Translations under genes and position numbers: made by a program
The notes under the pieces: model-generated
Seen by the model: only the letters and a program-made list of their open reading frames with translations
Database searches by the model: none
Told to the model about the DNA's origin: nothing
Shown here: one piece after another, positions 13,072 through 61,384 of the stretch
How the letters are laid out: the number at the start of each line of letters is the position of its first letter
Position numbering within the stretch: the stretch's first letter is position 1
Source: Myxococcales bacterium
GTDB lineage: Bacteria; Myxococcota_A; Polyangia; Haliangiales; Haliangiaceae
DNA length: 64,000 bases
Direction: 5' to 3'
Assembly: GCA_016794525.1 (NCBI GenBank)
Contig: JAEUJY010000090.1
Location: 1-64,000 of the forward strand

Positions 13072-15882
13072 ATGTCCACACGTCCCCGCCACCTCGCCAT
13101 CGCCGTCGCGGCCGTCGCGCTCGCGGCGTGCGGCCCGACCGCGCTGCCCAACTTCGGCGGGCTCGAGCCCGACGCGCGCACGCTCAAGGTCAAGAACGAC
13201 GTGCGCCTCCTCGAGCTGACCAACGGCATGCAGGTGGCGCTGGTGCCCGACGACCGCACCAACCTGGTCTCGGTCGACGTCCGCTACCGCGTCGGCAGCA
13301 ACCAGGACCCCGCCGGGCGCACCGGCCTGGCCCACCTCGCCGAGCACGTGCTGTTCCAGACCGCCGGCGACAGCCAGGGCACGCCGCTGTTCGACAAGTT
13401 CGCGTCGCTCGCGCTGACCTTCAACGCGTTCACCGGCCACGACGTCACCCACTACACCTCGACCGCGCTGGCCAACCGGGTCGACGCGCTGCTCGAGCTC
13501 GAGGCGCGGCGCCTCGAGACGCCGTGCGCGTCGGTCCCCGAGGCGGCGTTCGTGCGCGAGCGCGACGTCGTGCTGGAGGAGGACGCGCAGCGCGACTCGA
13601 CCTGGGGCCGGGTGTTCAGCGAGATCGAGCGCGCGGTGTGGGGCACGTCGCACCCGTACGGGCACCCGGTCGGCACCCGCGAGGTGGCCAAGGCGACCAA
13701 GGCCGAAGTGTGCGCGCTGGTCGATCGCTACTACACGCCGAAGCGCGCCATCCTGGTGGTCTCGGGCAACATCAACCCCGACGCGCTGCAGCCGCGCATC
13801 GGCCGCCGGTTCGGACCGATCGCGCGCACCTCCGACGTCCCCAAGATCCTCGATCCGATCGAGCCGGCGCGCCTGGCCGGCACCCGCAGCGCCCACACCG
13901 GCGACGTCGATCACCCGACGGCGGTGATCGTGCTGCCGGCGCCGCCGTGGGGCTCGCCCGACGAGGTCGTCCACGACGCGACGCTGGCGGCGTTCAGCGG
14001 CGAGCTGAGCTCGCTCGACGCGCGCACCGACTGGATCCTCGACGTCGGCGTGGGCTACGGCGGCGACAGCTACCAGCGGACGACGATGATCGTGGTCGAG
14101 GTCTCCGACCCCGCCCGCCTCGACGCCGCGGTGGCGGCGGTGCTGCGCGCCGGCCAGGGCGTGCTGACCGACGACGACAACGACGGCAACGCCGACGACA
14201 ACGACGACCCCGACGACCGCACGATCGCCCACGTCCTGGCGTCGTTGCGCGGGCGGCTGCAGACCCGGACGATCACCGCCAACGATCGCTTCTGGGGCAA
14301 GGGCGAGGCGATCGCCGACTACCTCACCTACACCGATCACTACGACTTCGCGTTCGCGCGGATGCGGACCACCGACGCGCTCACCGGCAACCAGATCGTC
14401 GCGTACGCGCACCAGCTGTTCGATCCGGACCACGTCCACGTCGCGAAGGTGACGCCGACCGGCGCCGCCGGCTCGGGCGCCGGCGCGGTCCGGACGGTCG
14501 CGGCCTCGGCCCACGAGTACGATCTGCCGGCGTGGCGGACCCCGGTCGACCCCGCGGCCGCGGCGCGCCCCGAGGCCGTGCCGCCGACGCCGCCGGCGCT
14601 GGACATCGAGGACTTCCGCCTGGTCAACGGCCTGCGCGTGCTGCTGTACGCCGAGCCGCGCAGCGCCGCGTTCGAGGCGCGCCTGGTCCTGCCGCGCGGC
14701 ACCGTCGACGAGCCCGCCGATCAGCGCGGCGTGGCGACCCTCGCGGCGACGATGCTCGACCACGACTTCGATCGGCTGTACCCGGCGCGCACCAGCGACA
14801 CGATCAACTGGGCGCTGCGCCTCGGCACCCAGCTCACCGCCGACGCCGACGAGGAGGCCACCGAGTTCGGCAGCCGCGGCCTGGCGATGTTCGCCGACTG
14901 GCACCTGTGGCGCCTGGCCTGGTTGATCGATCAGGGCGTCTACAGCGGCGCCGCGCTCGCTGCGTGGCGGCGCGAGCTGCGCGAGGCCGACGACCGCGAG
15001 AGCTCGCCGTCGGGGCTGGCGTTCGGCCAGCGGCTGTACGGCGCCGACCACCCGTACGCGCAGGAGCCGCCGCCGCGCGACGCGATCGCGGCGATCGGCG
15101 CCGGCCAGCTCGAGGCGTGGCGCCGCCGCAACCTCGGCCTCGACGGCGCCACGCTGATCGTCAGCGGCGGCTTCGACCGCGACGCGATGCACAAGCACGT
15201 CGTCGACCTGTTCGGCGCGATCGGCAAGCGCACCCCGCCGGCGCGCGCCGCCTTGCCGCGCCCACACCCGGCGACCGGGCCGAGCTGGATCGGCACCCGC
15301 GAGCCCGACGAGCCGCAGATCAGCCTGTACGTCAGCTTCACCGCCGGGTCCGATCGCGATCGCGACCACGCCGCGCGCCAGGTCCTGAGCGAGATGATCG
15401 CGGACCGACTGCGGGTCGTCCGCGAGGGCATGGGCGCGAGCTACGGCGTCTCGAGCGGCTACAACGAGCGGGCCGCCGCCAGCGTGCTCCGCGTCTACGC
15501 CGCGCTCGATCCCGCGCGCGCCCCCAAGGCCGCCGCCGCGGTGGTCGCCGCGCTGACCGCGCTGCGCACCGACCCGCAGGCCGCCGCGGCCGACTTCGTG
15601 CGGGCCCGGCGCCGGCTGGTCTCGGACGCGCTGGCGTCGTCGATCGACGTCGAGGCGGTGGCGACGCGGCTCGACTGGGCGGTGCGCCACGGCGGCGACC
15701 TGCGCCGGCTGAGCACCGTCGCCAGCGACCTCGCGACCGTCACGCTCGACCAGGTGGCGGCGGTCGCGCAGGCCGACCTCGACCCGGCGCGGATGGTGGT
15801 CTCGGTCGACGGCCAGCCGGCCGCAGCCAAGGCCACGCTCGACGCGCTCGGCGCGACCGACGTGGCGTGGTTCGACGAGTGA
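13072..15882 (+). CDS. M16 metallopeptidase lipoprotein 2
   Basis: This 936-residue lipoprotein (LAAC, Cys20) has an active N-terminal M16 domain, with H88-x-x-E91-H92 (HLAEH) and the downstream Glu170 in VVLEEDAQR, 78 residues after the second His as in its two neighbours. An Asp/Asn-rich loop at residues 367-382 (DDDNDGNADDNDD) interrupts the fold and resembles a calcium-binding insert. The second half (from about 510) keeps the fold but lacks HxxEH. ATG 13072 is preceded by an AAGGTAGG ribosome site. It overlaps the third M16 gene by GTGA, so the two are translationally coupled. The 3' end is almost identical at DNA level to that of the next gene, showing recent duplication or gene conversion. 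Confidence 0.9.
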   Translation: MSTRPRHLAIAVAAVALAACGPTALPNFGGLEPDARTLKVKNDVRLLELTNGMQVALVPDDRTNLVSVDVRYRVGSNQDPAGRTGLAHLAEHVLFQTAGDSQGTPLFDKFASLALTFNAFTGHDVTHYTSTALANRVDALLELEARRLETPCASVPEAAFVRERDVVLEEDAQRDSTWGRVFSEIERAVWGTSHPYGHPVGTREVAKATKAEVCALVDRYYTPKRAILVVSGNINPDALQPRIGRRFGPIARTSDVPKILDPIEPARLAGTRSAHTGDVDHPTAVIVLPAPPWGSPDEVVHDATLAAFSGELSSLDARTDWILDVGVGYGGDSYQRTTMIVVEVSDPARLDAAVAAVLRAGQGVLTDDDNDGNADDNDDPDDRTIAHVLASLRGRLQTRTITANDRFWGKGEAIADYLTYTDHYDFAFARMRTTDALTGNQIVAYAHQLFDPDHVHVAKVTPTGAAGSGAGAVRTVAASAHEYDLPAWRTPVDPAAAARPEAVPPTPPALDIEDFRLVNGLRVLLYAEPRSAAFEARLVLPRGTVDEPADQRGVATLAATMLDHDFDRLYPARTSDTINWALRLGTQLTADADEEATEFGSRGLAMFADWHLWRLAWLIDQGVYSGAALAAWRRELREADDRESSPSGLAFGQRLYGADHPYAQEPPPRDAIAAIGAGQLEAWRRRNLGLDGATLIVSGGFDRDAMHKHVVDLFGAIGKRTPPARAALPRPHPATGPSWIGTREPDEPQISLYVSFTAGSDRDRDHAARQVLSEMIADRLRVVREGMGASYGVSSGYNERAAASVLRVYAALDPARAPKAAAAVVAALTALRTDPQAAAADFVRARRRLVSDALASSIDVEAVATRLDWAVRHGGDLRRLSTVASDLATVTLDQVAAVAQADLDPARMVVSVDGQPAAAKATLDALGATDVAWFDE
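15714..15776 (+). repeat. 63-base direct repeat, copy 1 (in M16 gene 2)
   Basis: The 63 bases here are identical, base for base, to 18506-18568 in the third M16 gene. They encode the TVASDLATVTLDQVAAVAQA segment near the C-terminus. Downstream identity continues with few mismatches to both stop codons. Identity of third-codon positions goes beyond what protein conservation would demand, so this marks recent duplication or conversion. Confidence 0.9.
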
Positions 15883-51435: not shown

Positions 51436-53064
51436 TCACCGCAGCGACGGCAGCGCCACGTCGGTCGCGTCGCCCCAGGTGCCGGCGTTGCGCGCGGTCC
51501 CGCCGGTGGCCCAGACGTACCAGGTGTGGGTCGCGCCCCGGAACACCGCGACGTCGGCCTTGCCGTCGCCGTTGTAGTCGCCGGGGACCAGCGCGTCGCC
51601 GGCCTGCCCCCACGCCTGCGAGGTCGTGCCGTTGGTGCTGCTGCGGATGACGTGCCAGCGGAAGTCGGTCGGGCGGTAGACCGCGAGGTCGCGCAGCCCG
51701 TCGCCGTCGTAGTCGGCGGCCACCGGCACGTCGCCGGCCTGGCCCCACTGCCGCGCCAGCAGCGTCCCGTCGGTGGAGCGCACGACGTACCAGATGCCGT
51801 CGCCCGGCCGCCACACGCCGACGTCGGCGCGCTGGTCGCCGTCGTAGTCGCCGGCGACCGGCACGTCGCCCGCCTGGCCCCACTGCGTGGTCCACACCTG
51901 GCCGTCGCTGCTGTTGATCCCGTACCAGAAGCCGTTGCCCGGGCGCCACACCGCGACGTCGGTCTTGCCGTCGCTGTCGTAGTCACCGGGGACCAGCACG
52001 TCGTCCGGATCGCCCCAGTACCTGATGGTCAGGCCGTTGTCGGAGCTGCGCCGGGTGACCCAGGCGCCCGTGCTCGGCCGCCAGAACGTGCGATCGGTCT
52101 TGCCGTCGCCGTCGAAGTCGCCGAGCACCGGCTGATCGCCCTGGGCCCCCCACGCGTCGCTGGTCGCCGCGCCCGTCGCGCTGCCGATCACGTACCAGGT
52201 GCCGTTGCCGGGGCGCCACACCGAGACGTCGGTCTTGCGGTCGCCGTCGAAGTCGGCCTTCACCGCCGGCGCGATCGTGCGCTCGATCCAGCTGCGGAAC
52301 GCCGGCACGCTGGCCTGGCCCGAGCCCGACAGGTCGAGGTTCCACCAGCTGTTGACGCCGGCCAGCGCGGCGCCGAGGAAGCACGGTCCACCCGAGTCGC
52401 CCGGCAAGGTCATCTGCCCGGCCGCGTTGACCGGGGTCGCGAAGGTGCCAGCGCTGTATGGCGTCGCGATCTGCGTGGCGCTGCGCAGCCCGGTCGAAGC
52501 GGTCAGGCAGTTGCCGTAGGCGAGCCACGTGCCGTTCGGGCACGTCCCCGACGGCCCCACCGGGTACGCGTCGACGGCGCCGTAGCCGTAGCTGGTGACC
52601 GCGTTGCCGTGGATCGACGTCTCGGAGCCGGTGTACAGCACCGCGCTCGGGACATCGCTCGGCATCGGGCTCGCCAGGTGCAGCATCGCGACGTCGGAGG
52701 TCGGGTGGTTGACGACGCGGTCGACGGTGCGCGACACGACGGTATCGGGACGCACGCTGCTGGCGGTGGAGCCGATCGGCAGGCCGCAGTGCTTGGCGGT
52801 GAGCACCCACGACGGCGCCACCAGCGTGCCGGAGCACCCGATGCCGGGCGGGAACGCGACGTAGAGGATCGAGCGGGTGTGGACCGGCGTGGTGCCGTCC
52901 CACGGGGTGACGAGGGCGCCGTTCTTGACCTCGGCCTCGTCGGCGCCGAGCGTCGGATCGTCGACGCAGGCGCCGAGCCCGGCGAGGGCGGCGAGCGCGG
53001 TGAGGCCGATGGCGCGATCGGCGAGACGAGGGCGGCGGCGGGAAGGTGGCGTGGCGGTGAGCAT
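51436..53064 (-). CDS. Trypsin-like serine protease lipoprotein with six 45-residue repeats
   Basis: The 542-residue lipoprotein (LGAC, Cys33) has a chymotrypsin-fold domain. The triad is H92 (TAKHC), D124 (SDVAMLHL) and S224 (GDSGGPC), so it should be active. Residues ~271-542 are a repeat domain of FG-GAP/VCBS type whose Asp-rich starts (DFDGD, DYDSD, DYDGD, DYNGD) fall at residues 271, 316, 361, 406, 451 and 496, exactly 45 residues apart. Each repeat holds the calcium-type motif D-x-D-G-D and the pattern D-V-x-V-W-R-P. Starts at ATG 53064 with an AAAGG site; an in-frame start at 53121 is less likely. Confidence 0.9.
   Translation of the reverse strand: MLTATPPSRRRPRLADRAIGLTALAALAGLGACVDDPTLGADEAEVKNGALVTPWDGTTPVHTRSILYVAFPPGIGCSGTLVAPSWVLTAKHCGLPIGSTASSVRPDTVVSRTVDRVVNHPTSDVAMLHLASPMPSDVPSAVLYTGSETSIHGNAVTSYGYGAVDAYPVGPSGTCPNGTWLAYGNCLTASTGLRSATQIATPYSAGTFATPVNAAGQMTLPGDSGGPCFLGAALAGVNSWWNLDLSGSGQASVPAFRSWIERTIAPAVKADFDGDRKTDVSVWRPGNGTWYVIGSATGAATSDAWGAQGDQPVLGDFDGDGKTDRTFWRPSTGAWVTRRSSDNGLTIRYWGDPDDVLVPGDYDSDGKTDVAVWRPGNGFWYGINSSDGQVWTTQWGQAGDVPVAGDYDGDQRADVGVWRPGDGIWYVVRSTDGTLLARQWGQAGDVPVAADYDGDGLRDLAVYRPTDFRWHVIRSSTNGTTSQAWGQAGDALVPGDYNGDGKADVAVFRGATHTWYVWATGGTARNAGTWGDATDVALPSLR
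51439..52254 (-). repeat. Six 135-base coding repeats
   Basis: The segment encodes six units of exactly 45 codons within the protease's C-terminal domain, the Asp-rich motif marking each start. The last unit is slightly longer and ends at the stop. Confidence 0.85.
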
Positions 53065-53174
53065 GGTGAGCCTTTCGGTTGGAACGCCGAGGTAGCGGTG
53101 GCCGACCGCGGTCTGTGACACGCCACGACGTCAAAACTTCACGACCCGGGCCGGCCACCGTGCGACCGTGCGGG

Positions 53175-56034: not shown

Positions 56035-57213
56035 TCACATGGTCGTGCAGTCGACCGGCGGCATCGCGGCGATCCACGCGTGGATCAGCGCGGCGCCCTT
56101 GGCGTGGGTCACCGAGCGGCCCAGGAGCGGCATCATCGCGCCGACGGTCTCGGTCGACAGGCGGAAGTACAGGATCGACGTGTCCGGATCGCCGGGCACG
56201 ATGTCGAACTCGAAGCCGCCGGTGCCGGCGCCGGCGCTGCCCGGCCGCTTGCAGTAGCCCAGCCGGAACAGGTCGGTGTTGTCGTGGCCGAGGAACAGCT
56301 GCGACGTGATGCCCTGGACCGCGTTGGGGTCGTGGCAGTGCGCGCAGTTGATGTCGAGGTACGACCGCGCCGCCGCGTCGAGCTCGGCCGGCGGGATCGC
56401 CGCGACGCCGCCGGTGTCGAGCGGCCGCAGATCGTAGGCCGCCGGGATGGTCGCGGTCGCCGGCGCGCCGGTCAGCATGCCCAGCGCGGCCAGCCGCTCG
56501 AGCTGGTTGGTGGTGCCGACCGCGCCACCGTAGGCGTAGCTGCGGTTGAGGTGCCGCGCCTTCATGCCGATCGGCACGATCGCCGGGCTGGCGGTCGGCG
56601 TCGGCTTGCGCGCGTGGCAGGTCTCGCACTGGTTCTTCTGCGGCACCAGGTAGTTCGCGGTCCGGGCCTGGCCGGCGTCGTCGACGAAGTCGATCACCTC
56701 GAAGGCGCCGGCCGGCGCCAGCTCGGCGTCGGTCTGATCCGCGTTCCACACGTACGGCAGCGGCTGCCAGCCGTCGGGGTAGCGGACCAGGAGCCGGGTC
56801 TCGATCAGCCGGGTGCCGACGGTCGGCGCGCGCAGGTCGGGCGCGAACGCGAAGTTCTTCAGCAGCACCGTGCCGACCGGGAACTCGAACGCCAGCTCGG
56901 GGTCGTAGCTGGCCGCCGCGCCCGGCGGCAGGTAGACCGCGCGCTGCTTGAGCGCGTAGTCCGAGAACAGCGGCGCGTTCAGGTCGTAGGGCACGACCCG
57001 CTCGTCGGTCGGGTTGAACGTGTAGCCGGTCGCCGGATCCCAGGCGAACAGGTTGTAGGCCGACAGCTTGGTCGGCGGCGGGGCGGTGACGTCGACGTGG
57101 ACCGGCTGGCTCAGGTCGACGCCGCCGCCGGCGTCGTCGGCACCGCAGCCGGCGACCGCCGCGACGGCCAGCGCGGCCAGCGTCGCGCCGAGCGGACGAA
57201 GAGAGGAGCGCAT
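56035..57213 (-). CDS. SO2930/HNE_0200-family dihaem cytochrome lipoprotein
   Basis: The 392-residue lipoprotein (VAGC, Cys23) has two haem-c sites, CETCH (196-200) and CAHCH (290-294). The sequence KLSAYNLFAWDPATGYTFNPTDERVVPYDLNAPLFSDYALKQR and the overall layout match the family annotated as SO2930-type dihaem cytochrome (TIGR03806, from memory). That family is regularly found next to, or fused with, a beta-helix protein (TIGR03805), here the upstream gene 14 bases away. Electron transfer or oxidation linked to the beta-helix partner is the inference; the biological role is not known. Confidence 0.88.
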   Translation of the reverse strand: MRSSLRPLGATLAALAVAAVAGCGADDAGGGVDLSQPVHVDVTAPPPTKLSAYNLFAWDPATGYTFNPTDERVVPYDLNAPLFSDYALKQRAVYLPPGAAASYDPELAFEFPVGTVLLKNFAFAPDLRAPTVGTRLIETRLLVRYPDGWQPLPYVWNADQTDAELAPAGAFEVIDFVDDAGQARTANYLVPQKNQCETCHARKPTPTASPAIVPIGMKARHLNRSYAYGGAVGTTNQLERLAALGMLTGAPATATIPAAYDLRPLDTGGVAAIPPAELDAAARSYLDINCAHCHDPNAVQGITSQLFLGHDNTDLFRLGYCKRPGSAGAGTGGFEFDIVPGDPDTSILYFRLSTETVGAMMPLLGRSVTHAKGAALIHAWIAAMPPVDCTTM

Positions 57214-57227
57214 GGCGGCCTCGTGGC

Positions 57228-58592
57228 TCAAGGCAGGACGACGTCGGCGATCGGCCCGCCGTTCAGGGTCGTGCAATCGAACGGCGCGAACGGCGCCGCC
57301 GGACGGAAGAACGGCACCTGGCTCGACGCCGACTGCTCGGCCAGGTTCATGCTCGCGAACGTGCCGCCGGTGTTGCCGCCGACGCAGATCCGGTTGGCGT
57401 TGCTGTTCATCGCGGCGTCGGTGGAGTTGAACATCGGCTCGCCGACGCTGTCGTAGAGCACGCTGTCGACCGGGTTGGTCGCGTAGATCAGGATCAGCAG
57501 CACGCCGAACTGCAGCGGGTCGTTGAGGTCGGGGTGCAGCCCCGAGCCCATGTGGGTGTTGCGCGCGACGACGATGTTCTCGCTGCGGAAGTTGGTGATC
57601 GTCCCGGCGCCGACGCCCGGCAGGAGGCCGAGGTCGTCCCACTGCCCGGCGATCGTCGCCGTGTTCAGCTCCCACTTGGTGGTGTCGGGCTCGATCACCA
57701 GGCCGCTGATCAGCGCGATGTCGCCGGTGTTGTTGTCCTGGTAGGTGTTGCCGGTGATCTCGACGCGGCGCGACGCCATCGCGAACGTGCCGGTGCCGGC
57801 CGGGATCTTGGCGACGGTGCCGCCGGGGGCGAAGTTGGTGTGGTTGTTGTTGCGGATGATGTTGTCGCGCAGCCGCACGTCGCGCCCGACGATCGGGTTG
57901 CCCGGCAGGTCGAACGCGACGATGCCCGCGGTGTTGTCCTCGGCGGTGTTGCCGTAGACGTCGGCGTACTGGGTGTTCTCGATCTCGAGGCCGGCGACGT
58001 TGCCGGTGACGACGTTGTTGCGGACGATGACGTGCTGGCACTGGCCGACGTAGAGGCCGGCGTCGGAGGCGTGCTCGGCGCGGCTGTCCTCGACCAGCAC
58101 GTGCTGCGACTTGACCGGGTAGATGCCGTAGGCGCCGTTGGTCGAGTCCGACGGCGTGGTCCAGGTGGCGCGGATGCGGCGGAAGACGACGCCGTCGCTG
58201 GCCTCGACGCGGATGCCATCCTTGGGCGCGTCCTGGACGGTCAGGTCCTGGACCAGGAAGTCGTTGCCCTGGACGTCGACGCCGTTGACCTGCGCGGCGG
58301 TGGTCGCGTAGTCGAGCGTCGTGGCCTCGATGCCCTGGCCGATCAGGTGCACGCCGGCGGCGCGGATCGTCAGCGAGTTGGTCATCGCGAACGTGCCCTT
58401 GCCGAGCACGATCGTGGTGTTGGGCGACAGCGTGTTGACCGTGGTCTGCAGCCCGGCGACGTCGCCGCCGTCGATCTGCACGCACGTGCCGGTGACGTCG
58501 GCGCACGAGTTGGTCGGGAAGTTGTTCTCGTCGCTGCCGCAAGCGGCGAGCGCGACGACGAGGCTGGCCGCGGTGAACGTCAATCGAGTCAT
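57228..58592 (-). CDS. Parallel beta-helix lipoprotein (TIGR03805-like)
   Basis: This 454-residue lipoprotein (LAAC, Cys18) begins, after a Cys-containing lead, with a pectate-lyase-like right-handed beta helix: GTFAMTNSLTIRAAGVHLIGQG, then repeated coils DLTVQDAPKDGIRVEASDGV, VLVEDSRAEHASDAGLYVGQ, VIVRNNVVTGNVAGLEIENT and EITGNTYQDNNTGDIALIS. It matches the family that is paired with the dihaem cytochrome just downstream (14-base gap, same strand). Probably binds or cleaves an extracellular polymer, or is a scaffold. Divergent from a TetR regulator. Confidence 0.88.
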   Translation of the reverse strand: MTRLTFTAASLVVALAACGSDENNFPTNSCADVTGTCVQIDGGDVAGLQTTVNTLSPNTTIVLGKGTFAMTNSLTIRAAGVHLIGQGIEATTLDYATTAAQVNGVDVQGNDFLVQDLTVQDAPKDGIRVEASDGVVFRRIRATWTTPSDSTNGAYGIYPVKSQHVLVEDSRAEHASDAGLYVGQCQHVIVRNNVVTGNVAGLEIENTQYADVYGNTAEDNTAGIVAFDLPGNPIVGRDVRLRDNIIRNNNHTNFAPGGTVAKIPAGTGTFAMASRRVEITGNTYQDNNTGDIALISGLVIEPDTTKWELNTATIAGQWDDLGLLPGVGAGTITNFRSENIVVARNTHMGSGLHPDLNDPLQFGVLLILIYATNPVDSVLYDSVGEPMFNSTDAAMNSNANRICVGGNTGGTFASMNLAEQSASSQVPFFRPAAPFAPFDCTTLNGGPIADVVLP

Positions 58593-58601
58593 GGATCCTC
58601 C

Positions 58602-58620
58602 GTGCGGTAGGGTGCCGCAC
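58602..58620. promoter_or_regulatory. Hairpin in the divergent spacer next to the beta-helix start
   Basis: GTGCGG (58602-58607) and CCGCAC (58615-58620) form a perfect 6-bp inverted repeat with a 7-base loop, 10 bases before the beta-helix ATG (58592 on minus). It could be a leader stem in the mRNA or a second protein site. Confidence 0.4.
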
Positions 58621-58640
58621 CTGCCTTGAGCATTCCGAGG

Positions 58641-58653
58641 GTATGTAACATAC
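58641..58653. promoter_or_regulatory. TetR-type operator palindrome
   Basis: GTATGT-A-ACATAC is a perfect 13-bp palindrome, 7 bases before the TetR ATG and about 50 bases before the beta-helix gene, inside a GC-rich surround. Placement and symmetry fit an autoregulatory operator that also covers the divergent promoter. Confidence 0.7.
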
Positions 58654-58660
58654 TCGCGGT

Positions 58661-59269
58661 ATGGCCGTCACGCGCCGCGCGCTGCACGTCGAGGACACGC
58701 GGCGCGCGCTCCTCGCCGCGGCCCGGCACGAGTTCGCGACCCGCGGCTACGCCCAGGCCTCGCTCGACGACATCGCCGCCCGCGCCCGGCTGACCAAGGG
58801 CGCGCTTTACCACCACTTCGCGAGCAAGGCGGCGGTCCTGACGGCGGTGTACCTGGAGATGGAGCAGGAGCTGGCCGAGCGGGTCGCCGCGGCGGTCGCC
58901 GCCAGCGCCGGCGACGCCCGCGCGCGCCTGTTCGCGGCGGTCGAGGCGTTCTTCGCCGCGTCGGCGGAGCCGGCGTACGCGCGGCTGGTGCTGCGCGACG
59001 CGCCCGGCGTGCTCGATCGCGTCGAGGGCCGCTCGATCGATCACGCGATCGGCCTCGAGCTGGTGAGCGGGCTGCTGGTCGCGCTGCGCGCCGAGGGGCG
59101 GCTCGGGCCGCTGCCGCTCGACATGACGGCGCGGATGCTGCTCGCCGCGGTCAGCGAGGTGGCGATGAGCATGGCCCACGCCGACGATCCCGCGGCGGTG
59201 CAGGCCGAGGGGATGGCGGTGATCGACGCGCTGATCACCGGCCTCGAGCTCGTGGCCCGCCGCGCCTGA
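58661..59269 (+). CDS. TetR-family regulator
   Basis: This 202-residue repressor-type protein has an N-terminal HTH (residues ~12-58, LLAAARHEFATRGYAQASLDDIAARARLTKGALYHHFASK) and a helical ligand domain of normal length. It is divergent from the beta-helix/dihaem-cytochrome operon across a 68-base spacer with a 13-bp palindrome, so it most likely controls that pair as well as itself. Ligand unknown. Confidence 0.9.
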   Translation: MAVTRRALHVEDTRRALLAAARHEFATRGYAQASLDDIAARARLTKGALYHHFASKAAVLTAVYLEMEQELAERVAAAVAASAGDARARLFAAVEAFFAASAEPAYARLVLRDAPGVLDRVEGRSIDHAIGLELVSGLLVALRAEGRLGPLPLDMTARMLLAAVSEVAMSMAHADDPAAVQAEGMAVIDALITGLELVARRA

Positions 59270-59281
59270 GGCCGCCGCAGC

Positions 59282-59698
59282 TCACTCCGCGCGGCGCATC
59301 ACCGACGCCACCCGCACGCGCTCGGCCGGGACGGCGATCGCGCGCAAGAAGTACGCCTTGAACGCCGGCGCCCACGGCTGCTCGTCGACCGCGCGCGCCA
59401 TGCACGTCAGCCACGCGTCGCGCTCGGGCGCGTCGATCGCGAACCGCGCGTGCATGCCCGGGATCGAGATCGGGCCGAACCGCGCGCGGTAGTCGTTGGG
59501 ACCACCGAGCCACGCGCACAGGAACACCGCGAGCTTCTCCCGGACCGCGGCCAGATCGGCGCCGTGCATCGCGCGGATGCCGCGGGCCTCGACGAGCGTG
59601 TCCATGTGGACGTAGAAGCGCTCGACCAGCCGGGCGATGCCGTCGCGGCCGCCGGCGGCGCGGTACGACGCGTCGCCGACGCCGTAGCCGTCGCTCAT
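59282..59698 (-). CDS. Group II truncated haemoglobin
   Basis: This 138-residue two-on-two globin has the proximal His H83 in MHARFAI, B10 Tyr29 (FYVHM) and G8 Trp96 (DAWLTCM), the residues that mark trHbII (trHbO type). It probably reacts with NO or O2 by dioxygenation. Its ATG (59698) overlaps the TGA of the RIC gene by four bases (ATGA), making one operon, which strongly suggests a shared role in nitric-oxide defence. Confidence 0.9.
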   Translation of the reverse strand: MSDGYGVGDASYRAAGGRDGIARLVERFYVHMDTLVEARGIRAMHGADLAAVREKLAVFLCAWLGGPNDYRARFGPISIPGMHARFAIDAPERDAWLTCMARAVDEQPWAPAFKAYFLRAIAVPAERVRVASVMRRAE

Positions 59699-60366
59699 CC
59701 CGCCGCGCCGATCGCGCGCGCGAACAGCACGTGGTTCTCGAGGTGGATGTGCGCCATCAGCTCGGCCTCGATCGCCGCGAGGCCGCGGTAGAGCGCGGTC
59801 CACGTCGCGCAGGCGTGCGGCGGGATGCGCAGGTCGCCGGTGAGCTCGCGGATCCGCGCGAGCTGCACGCCGTGGGCGTCGTGCTCGTGCTCCATCACCT
59901 CGATCGGCATCGCGACGGCGGGGCCGCGCGCGCCCCGCCGCAGCATCGGGAACAGGATCTGCTCCTCCTTGGCCATGTGGCTCTGCATCTCGCCGAAGAA
60001 CTCGGTGAGCACGTCGGCCAGGCCCGCCGGCACCGCGGGCTTGGCGGCGTGGACCCGCTCGACCTTGCGCGCCGCCTCGATCAGCGGCGGCAGATCGCGC
60101 CGCAGCCCGGCGTGGTAGTGGCCCTCGATGTGATCGACCAGCTCGGCCTGCGATCGCTGCGCCCAGCGCGGCAGGTCGTCGCCGCGCCCGGCCTCGCGCT
60201 CGATCTCCTCGGCGACCTCGGCGGGGTTGAGGTCGGCCTTGACGCACGCCTCCTCCAGCGTCCGCTGGCCGCCGCAGCAGAAGTCGAGGCGATGGCGCAG
60301 GAAGACGCGGGTGGACGACGGCTGGGCGGCGGCGATGTCGCCGATGGGCGTGGTGAGGAGCTGCAT
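59695..60366 (-). CDS. ytfE: RIC (repair of iron centres) di-iron protein, YtfE/ScdA type
   Basis: This 223-residue cytoplasmic protein has an N-terminal short domain with FCCGG (Cys30, Cys31) as in ScdA/RIC and a C-terminal hemerythrin-like di-iron domain, with ligands in DHIEGHYH, SHMAKEEQILFP, EHEHDAHG and HIHLENHVLF. It restores Fe-S clusters damaged by NO or oxidants. It is transcribed with the truncated haemoglobin gene. The upstream spacer to the YwiC-like gene has an AT-rich element that may be its NO- or oxygen-responsive site. Confidence 0.93.
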   Translation of the reverse strand: MQLLTTPIGDIAAAQPSSTRVFLRHRLDFCCGGQRTLEEACVKADLNPAEVAEEIEREAGRGDDLPRWAQRSQAELVDHIEGHYHAGLRRDLPPLIEAARKVERVHAAKPAVPAGLADVLTEFFGEMQSHMAKEEQILFPMLRRGARGPAVAMPIEVMEHEHDAHGVQLARIRELTGDLRIPPHACATWTALYRGLAAIEAELMAHIHLENHVLFARAIGAAG

Positions 60367-60550: not shown

Positions 60551-61384
60551 ATGGCCGCTCGTCGACCCGCCGCTCGATCGCTGTGGCCGCGGGAGCACGG
60601 CGCCTATGTCCAGCTGCTGGTGCCGCTGTGCACGGCGCTGATCGCCACCGGCGGGAGCGCGGCCAGCGCGGCGATCGCGATCGGCGCATGCCTGGCGTTC
60701 GTGGCCAGCGAGCCGCTGCGGGTGGTCGTCGGCGCGCGCGGGGCGCGGCTGCGCGAGACCGCCGGCGCCCGGGCCCGCGTGCGGCTGGCGCTGCTCGGCG
60801 CTGCCGCGATGCTCGTCGGCGGCGCCGGCCTGGCGCTCGCGCCGCGGTCCGCGCTGTGGCTGTCGGCGCTGGTCGCCGTGCCGCTGGGGTTCGTGCTGGT
60901 CGCCGCCACCCGCCGCGCCGAGGGCACGGTGCTCGGCGAGCTGGCCGCGGCGGTCGGGCTCGCGGGCGCCGCCGCGCCGGTGGCGGTGGCCGGCGGCATG
61001 CGCGCGCTCGACGCGCTGACGATCTGGGGCGCGTGGTCGATGGCCTACGCGACCACGGTGATCGCGGTGCACCACGTGATCGCGCGCCACCGCCGCGCGG
61101 ATCGCGGTCGCGCCCGCCTCGGCCGCTGGCTCGGCGTCGCGCTCGCCGGCGCCGGCCTCGCCGCGCTGATCGCGATCGCGCCGATCGCGTGGTTCGCCGC
61201 GCCGCTGGCCGCCGCCGCGGTCGTGGTGCTGGTCGTGACGCCGCCCGCGACCCGCCTGCGCGCGATCGGCGTGGCGTTCCTCGCGATCTCCCTGGTCGCC
61301 GCGCTGTGCGCCGTCACCGCCGCCCGGCGCGTGGCGCCCGAACCCGCGCCCGCGCGCCCCGGCGCGGCGCAGCTCGCTGGTTGA
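60551..61384 (+). CDS. YwiC-like membrane protein
   Basis: This 277-residue polytopic protein has about eight hydrophobic segments. It begins with WPREHGAYVQLLVPL, the signature of YwiC-like proteins (PF14256). In Bacillus the founding gene lies beside the fnr/nar anaerobic genes. Here it is divergent from the NO-defence operon, so a link to low-oxygen or nitrogen-oxide metabolism fits, but its biochemical role is unknown. Confidence 0.8.
   Translation: MAARRPAARSLWPREHGAYVQLLVPLCTALIATGGSAASAAIAIGACLAFVASEPLRVVVGARGARLRETAGARARVRLALLGAAAMLVGGAGLALAPRSALWLSALVAVPLGFVLVAATRRAEGTVLGELAAAVGLAGAAAPVAVAGGMRALDALTIWGAWSMAYATTVIAVHHVIARHRRADRGRARLGRWLGVALAGAGLAALIAIAPIAWFAAPLAAAAVVVLVVTPPATRLRAIGVAFLAISLVAALCAVTAARRVAPEPAPARPGAAQLAG

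Follow-up and report, generated by a model that had tools for sequence, protein, structure and literature searches.

This analysis concerns three adjoining genes at positions 56035–59269 of a 64,000-nucleotide stretch of a Myxococcales genome (contig JAEUJY010000090.1, positions 1 to 64,000; hereafter the window), which encode a diheme lipoprotein, a beta-helix lipoprotein and a divergent TetR-family regulator. We propose, with moderate confidence, that the two lipoproteins represent an outer-membrane oxidoreductase with a reactive haem of the cytochrome P460 type, an electron exit of its own and a beta-helix partner, which in this genus is under TetR control. The cytochrome appears to be more than a diheme carrier, as it joins a P460-like domain to a cytochrome c domain that is probably of the His/Met type. 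This architecture is newly proposed here: the initial annotation, made from the sequence alone, had missed the P460-type domain, although its suggestion of surface redox chemistry as the likely role of the pair is supported by our results.

The triad of genes was confirmed as first noted. The cytochrome, P0001 (56035–57213, minus strand; 392 residues), belongs to the SO2930/HNE_0200 family of diheme lipoproteins: it scores 346.5 bits against TIGR03806, above the cut-off of 313.3, and has two CXXCH motifs, at residues 196 and 290. Upstream of it, across a gap of 14 bases (57214–57227), lies the gene of P0002 (57228–58592, minus strand; 454 residues), a right-handed parallel beta-helix lipoprotein that scores 319.6 bits against TIGR03805 (cut-off 141.5) and also matches PF13229 (1e-26). 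The coordinates, strands and family assignments given earlier for the two lipoproteins are thus correct. The regulator, P0003 (58661–59269, plus strand; 202 residues), combines a TetR_N helix–turn–helix (PF00440, 1.7e-15) with a C-terminal ligand domain of the TetR_C_41 type (PF21351, 2e-20), and is separated from the beta-helix gene by a divergent spacer of 68 bp (58593–58660).

Judged from predicted structures and sequence profiles, the N-terminal half of P0001 is distantly related to cytochromes of the P460/c'-beta superfamily. The domain in question spans residues 44–244 (56482–57084, minus strand) and holds the first haem. The five-stranded beta-sheet haem domain with a C-terminal CXXCH that defines the fold is seen here on predicted models only, in AlphaFold models both of full-length P0001 (pLDDT 91) and of the isolated domain (pLDDT 93). 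When the whole model was compared with known structures using a second-look structural aligner, rows 1–12 were all P460 or c'-beta cytochromes (Z 5.3–7.2; next unrelated row, Z 3.5), aligned over 114–139 residues inside residues 32–255. For the domain model, the same was true of rows 1–14 (Z 5.2–7.3; next row, Z 3.8), and the best row in both comparisons was the cytochrome c'-beta NeCP-beta (Z 7.2–7.3). These Z-scores are below 8 throughout and weak taken alone, and the relation was therefore examined by sequence profiles. In hhalign comparisons, which give E-values for pairwise comparisons, PF16694 proteins of the same phylum aligned with 53 TIGR03806 proteins at E = 7.3e-6 over the motif FPVGTxLxK, outside CXXCH, and with a broader set of 101 modules at E = 3.4e-6 with CXXCH and 1.2e-4 without it, while the best of 40 column shuffles reached 0.017 and a reversed profile 0.54. 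PF16694 itself was found below threshold in 29 of the 53 TIGR03806 members (best 3.2e-4), and P0001 gave no match to it at all; because matches in the relatives are only sub-threshold and P0001 has none, we treat the protein as a distant relative of PF16694 proteins rather than as one of them. A sequence search of P0001 against solved structures returned no credible match. Like the cytochromes P460 NeP460 and McP460, P0001 has the first-domain fold, the motif order FPxGxxxxK, GW, CXXCH, the Arg cap and the Lys position. It differs from them in its fusion to a cytochrome c domain, a longer haem domain, its lipoprotein nature, its beta-helix partner and its place below the PF16694 threshold.

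The putative haem pocket of this domain is strongly conserved. A review of the superfamily sets out three functional pocket positions (PMC11928373); the cross-linking lysine is Lys78 in McP460, where c'-beta has Phe61 (PMC11928373 Table 2), and the capping residue is Arg50 in McP460 (PMC11928373). We counted conservation in the aligned columns of 108 other modules from many phyla, including modules fused to a glucose/sorbosone dehydrogenase (GSDH) propeller. Lys119 (56857–56859, minus strand), which aligns with McP460 Lys78 both in PDB-chain alignments and in hhalign and by position supplies the lysine expected of a cytochrome P460, is kept in 107 of the 108 modules. Arg91 (56941–56943, minus strand) aligns in the same way with McP460 Arg50 and is present in all 108, as is Glu138 (56800–56802, minus strand), which lies on the strand bearing the P460 distal carboxylate, with a register uncertain by one residue. 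The first haem-binding motif, CETCH (residues 196–200; 56614–56628, minus strand), is invariant in the same set. Cytochromes c'-beta such as NeCP-beta and McCP-beta share the fold but have Met or Phe at the Lys position, whereas the TIGR03806 family keeps the Lys and a polar pocket; by sequence, Lys119 thus sets the family apart from c'-beta. By analogy with cytochrome P460, Lys119 may be cross-linked to the haem.

The second domain of P0001 contains the haem-binding motif CAHCH (residues 290–294; 56332–56346, minus strand), which is invariant, and Met361 (56131–56133, minus strand), the proposed axial ligand, which is found in all 107 non-gapped rows. Because both the second CXXCH and Met361 are invariant, the second haem is probably His/Met-ligated and electron-transferring. 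The cytochrome c profile PF00034 is weakly matched in 49 of the 53 family members, with a best value of 3.3e-6 among members for PF00034/PF13442.

To describe the pair elsewhere, we surveyed 80 named loci with 8-kb flanks, which are the most similar loci and not a random sample, together with 20 loci from genomes of the same phylum; genes were called with a self-trained coding model, and both families were then mapped. Of 99 loci, 81 have the two genes side by side on one strand, with the beta-helix gene immediately upstream, and in 7 more the two are a single gene, which bears out the earlier description of the pair as recurrent; some of the loci without an adjacent pair are at contig ends. 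A Halioglobus protein (L098:6504–8969) is an example of a natural fusion. The nearest named relatives belong to Myxococcota, and the pair was seen in Myxococcota, Pseudomonadota, Bacteroidota, Balneolota, Planctomycetota, Acidobacteriota, Spirochaetota and other phyla. Within the same phylum, 116 of 188 genomes have a TIGR03806 match, and most of the weaker matches are longer proteins. Because a GSDH propeller precedes the module in seven of the eight such paralogues examined (L171–L178), the TIGR03806 module can follow either of two N-terminal partners, the beta helix or the GSDH propeller. The order is the same in both kinds of fusion, partner first and module after. The GSDH propeller–P460-like–cytochrome c fusions share the C-terminal module and its invariant residues with P0001, including the Lys/Glu/Arg pocket, and are set apart by their N-terminal partner. 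Their layout resembles that of the hydrazine synthase alpha subunit, which has a propeller, a reactive haem and a second haem (PMC12758564); this subunit is absent among the structural rows listed for the P0001 models. The genome of the window (9.8 Mb, 177 contigs) contains three TIGR03806 genes and only one TIGR03805 gene. Its two further TIGR03806 genes, on contig C117 (L043:7429–8496 and 14693–15742), have no beta-helix partner, and the second is very divergent.

Proteins of the P0002 family have many invariant polar residues in successive coils of the beta helix, and a sequence search of P0002 against solved structures gave only weak resemblance to polysaccharide lyases and pectinesterases. 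Both lipoproteins have a recognisable lipobox, VAGC23 in P0001 and LAAC18 in P0002. Because Gly follows the lipobox Cys in both, the sequences suggest anchoring in the outer membrane, which is the location given for the Shewanella relative (PMC12175506, PMC5357785). The adjoining Shewanella relatives, SO_2930 and SO_2931, appear in the literature as c-type cytochromes of the outer membrane (PMC4837345, PMC12175506, PMC5357785). Which of them is the diheme protein differs by source, as the NCBI family is named after SO2930 and the papers give SO_2931 as the diheme lipoprotein. Under its TIGR name, the family has no relevant mention in the literature searched, and the earlier statement that the pair is without an assigned function holds, even though these relatives are known by name. 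The locus in the window resembles the conserved hypothetical TIGR03806/TIGR03805 pair (SO_2930/SO_2931, HNE_0200) in its adjacent lipoproteins, diheme protein and scores above the curated cut-offs. Unlike that pair, it has a dedicated divergent TetR gene and a tandem operator, which within its clade were found only in this genus.

The linkage of the TetR gene to the pair is conserved within the genus. A second species (G331) has all three genes in the same order, with identities of 70% for the TetR protein, 83% for the beta helix and 81% for the cytochrome. Because the other genes that flank the triad in the window are not present in the 20 kb around the G331 triad, the three genes behave as one unit. 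In a third genome of the genus (G085), the only pair belongs to the other subfamily. In the window's own clade of a quick tree (20 rows, SH-aLRT 99), the window is the only surveyed locus in which a TetR gene adjoins the pair; the upstream genes scanned in the others encode a thioesterase, an alpha/beta hydrolase, a transhydrogenase subunit, a protein resembling haem-dependent oxidative N-demethylase (HODM) and others. The survey of TetR association named beforehand as a check thus gave a divided answer: the gene is conserved in G331 and in none of the other surveyed members of the clade. The earlier proposal of TetR control is supported for this genus by a triad kept between species and an operator footprint. 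TetR as a regular neighbour of the pair is not supported, since a TetR gene adjoins the pair in only 7 of about 88 loci with a called upstream gene. Elsewhere, divergent TetR genes were found in one betaproteobacterial metagenome-assembled genome and in five Kordiimonadales-type loci, of which four form one group in the tree, while AraC regulators stand ahead of the pair in six Xanthomonadales loci; TetR or AraC regulators have been recruited separately elsewhere. In two Myxococcus species (L059:5065–5793, L061:5014–5934), the gene divergent to the pair encodes a HODM-like protein (PF11927). The genes opposite P0003 homologues encode alpha/beta hydrolases, a P450, a methyltransferase and a phosphotransferase, and in view of these genes P0003 may, by analogy, be a sensor of small organic molecules.

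The spacer contains a candidate operator. The initial annotation had singled out a perfect 13-bp palindrome, GTATGTAACATAC (58641–58653). It is indeed exact, with 6-base arms on either side of a single unpaired base, and, allowing up to one mismatch, unique in the 9.8-Mb genome; taken alone it is mildly unlikely (P ~0.036 in shuffles of the 68-bp spacer), and the window has 217 palindromes of that class, nearly all G+C-rich. Comparing the upstream regions of 26 TetR homologues revealed a different common inverted repeat, CATAC-N5-GTATG, which is frequently present twice. Of 24 homologues from outside the genus, 9 have this repeat within about 200 bp when up to one mismatch is allowed, 4 of them exactly, compared with a mean of 0.055 and a maximum of 1 in dinucleotide shuffles. 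A variant with a gap of 9 was found in 7 of 24 with at most one mismatch, and other gaps hardly recur. The repeat is present upstream of TetR homologues independently of the lipoprotein pair. The window has two copies at a spacing of 18 bp: CATTCCGAGGGTATG (58631–58645), with one mismatch, and CATACTCGCGGTATG (58649–58663), which is the only exact site in the genome and overlaps the tetR start codon. The 13-bp palindrome is identical in G331 and, with at most one mismatch, was found only there and in the window, whereas CATAC-N5-GTATG is common to diverged homologues; we therefore rejected the palindrome as the primary operator. From its sequence, the putative operator is better described as a tandem CATAC-N5-GTATG, with the palindrome arising at the junction of the two copies. 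A promoter scan of the spacer found nothing. P0003 resembles other repressors of the TetR_C_41 subfamily with divergent targets in its orientation and in having a palindromic operator in the spacer, and differs in the tandem arrangement of the repeat and in what lies opposite its homologues, among them alpha/beta hydrolases and a P450. The Kordiimonadales-type loci (L066, L074, L075, L080, L092) share a different conserved palindrome, TGAAACNGTTTCA or a closely similar sequence, located just ahead of a TTGAC element, and together with the divergent TetR gene this represents a parallel case of TetR control.

In the model that we favour, the two lipoproteins would form one oxidoreductase of the cell envelope. 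Haem 1, in the P460/c'-beta-derived domain, would be open and reactive, with an Arg cap, a Lys and a conserved Glu, and would react with a substrate or a small co-substrate. Haem 2, in an ordinary His/Met cytochrome c domain, would carry electrons away (or in). The beta-helix lipoprotein, as the usual and sometimes fused partner, would present or bind the substrate; the initial annotation had suggested that the helix may hold a polymer or small molecule. In this genus, the divergent TetR protein would bind the two CATAC-N5-GTATG copies, thereby covering the start of tetR and the pair's promoter region, and binding of a small ligand would release the operator and allow the pair to be made.

Several points weigh against this model, beginning with the low structural scores, the pairwise nature of the profile E-values and the lack of a PF16694 match to P0001. 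To these are added the Foldseek results, in which P460 chains were non-significant for both the domain (best E 0.069, probability 0.77) and the whole model (0.07); none of the tests of the fold relation is decisive by itself. In hhalign, the distal-carboxylate column falls on the invariant Thr139, next to the invariant Glu138, an offset of one residue. Neighbouring genes indicate no substrate, as most surveyed loci have unrelated neighbours, and hydroxylamine metabolism is not a known shared trait of the organisms that have the pair. That the TetR protein binds an effector and represses the pair is a proposal made here from sequence. Finally, the GSDH-fused relatives raise the possibility that a dehydrogenase supplies the electrons and the module does no more than accept them.

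This last point leads to the main rival explanation, according to which the P460-like and cytochrome c module only accepts electrons for another active site: the fused GSDH propeller in the paralogues and, here, the beta helix or an unlinked enzyme that handles a carbohydrate or alcohol, with the haems feeding the respiratory chain. The GSDH fusions described above, with the same order as the beta-helix fusions, speak for it, as do some gene neighbourhoods. In Xanthomonadales loci (L071, L086, L090, L101, L107, L113, L115, L119, L121), a TonB-dependent receptor follows the pair, in several of them with an aldehyde dehydrogenase after the receptor and often with an AraC regulator of the Arabinose_bd type ahead of the pair. 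(Halieaceae loci have FMO, AMP-binding and alpha/beta-hydrolase genes near the pair.) However, no redox cofactor is known for a beta helix. Arg91, Lys119 and Glu138 are almost absolutely conserved whether the module is fused to a beta helix or to a GSDH propeller, which argues for chemistry at haem 1 itself, and a P460-type haem, being very low in potential (PMC11928373), would be a poor relay. We regard this explanation as unlikely, though worth keeping in view.

Next to tetR in the window, genes for a group-2 truncated haemoglobin (59282–59701) and a RIC/ScdA-type hemerythrin (59695–60366) overlap by a few bases on the minus strand (59282–60366), beside a YwiC-like gene (60551–61384, plus strand); the three are likely a nitrosative-stress unit. 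They bear on a second alternative, in which haem 1 is a gas binder of the c'-beta type that binds nitric oxide (or carbon monoxide) for detoxification or sensing, with the truncated haemoglobin and RIC/ScdA in the same nitric oxide response. NeCP-beta as the best structural row also fits. Cytochromes c'-beta, however, are without the Lys (PMC11928373 Table 2) that is conserved in the TIGR03806 family. A nitric oxide-response operon with the truncated haemoglobin, RIC/ScdA and YwiC genes would be attractive alongside a P460-type haem but was rejected as a candidate, as these genes lie neither in the 20 kb around the G331 triad nor beside the pair in other surveyed loci. We consider the gas-binding role rather improbable.

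We give still less credence to a role in extracellular electron transfer, in which the cytochrome would hand electrons to acceptors outside the cell; such a role has been proposed for Shewanella oneidensis SO_2931, one of the five outer-membrane cytochromes of strain MR-1 (PMC12175506, PMC5829830, PMC5357785). P0001 has only two haems, of unlike kinds, and the pair is widespread in bacteria without known metal reduction. Moreover, SO_2931 alone reportedly failed to restore metal or anode reduction in a Shewanella strain that lacks all five. Equally improbable in our view is that the fold resemblance reflects a common arrangement only, the N-terminal domain being an unrelated beta-sheet haem domain with a structural duty: the structural scores and Foldseek E-values above 0.05 for P460 chains would allow this, but the profile evidence is independent of them and in register at the Arg, the Lys, the GW motif and CXXCH. 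Elsewhere in the window, a trypsin-like serine protease (51436–53121, minus strand) has a C-terminal array of DYDGDGKTDVAVWRPG-type repeats, which by eye are FG-GAP/VCBS-like.

Returning to the P460-type model, the tie to cytochrome P460 gives an orphan pair, without assigned chemistry across many phyla, a concrete and testable chemistry, and the TetR switch with its defined operator is a possible reporter for the inducing ligand. More tentatively, and short of calling it probable, we suggest that TIGR03806 may be a widespread, unrecognised class of self-wired P460 enzymes, in which a Lys-cross-linked haem and an electron-accepting cytochrome c would be united in one surface lipoprotein with interchangeable substrate-handling partners, a beta helix or a GSDH propeller, far outside the nitrifiers and methanotrophs in which P460 has been studied. 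If this is true, a large number of ordinary heterotrophs would also have P460-type haems.

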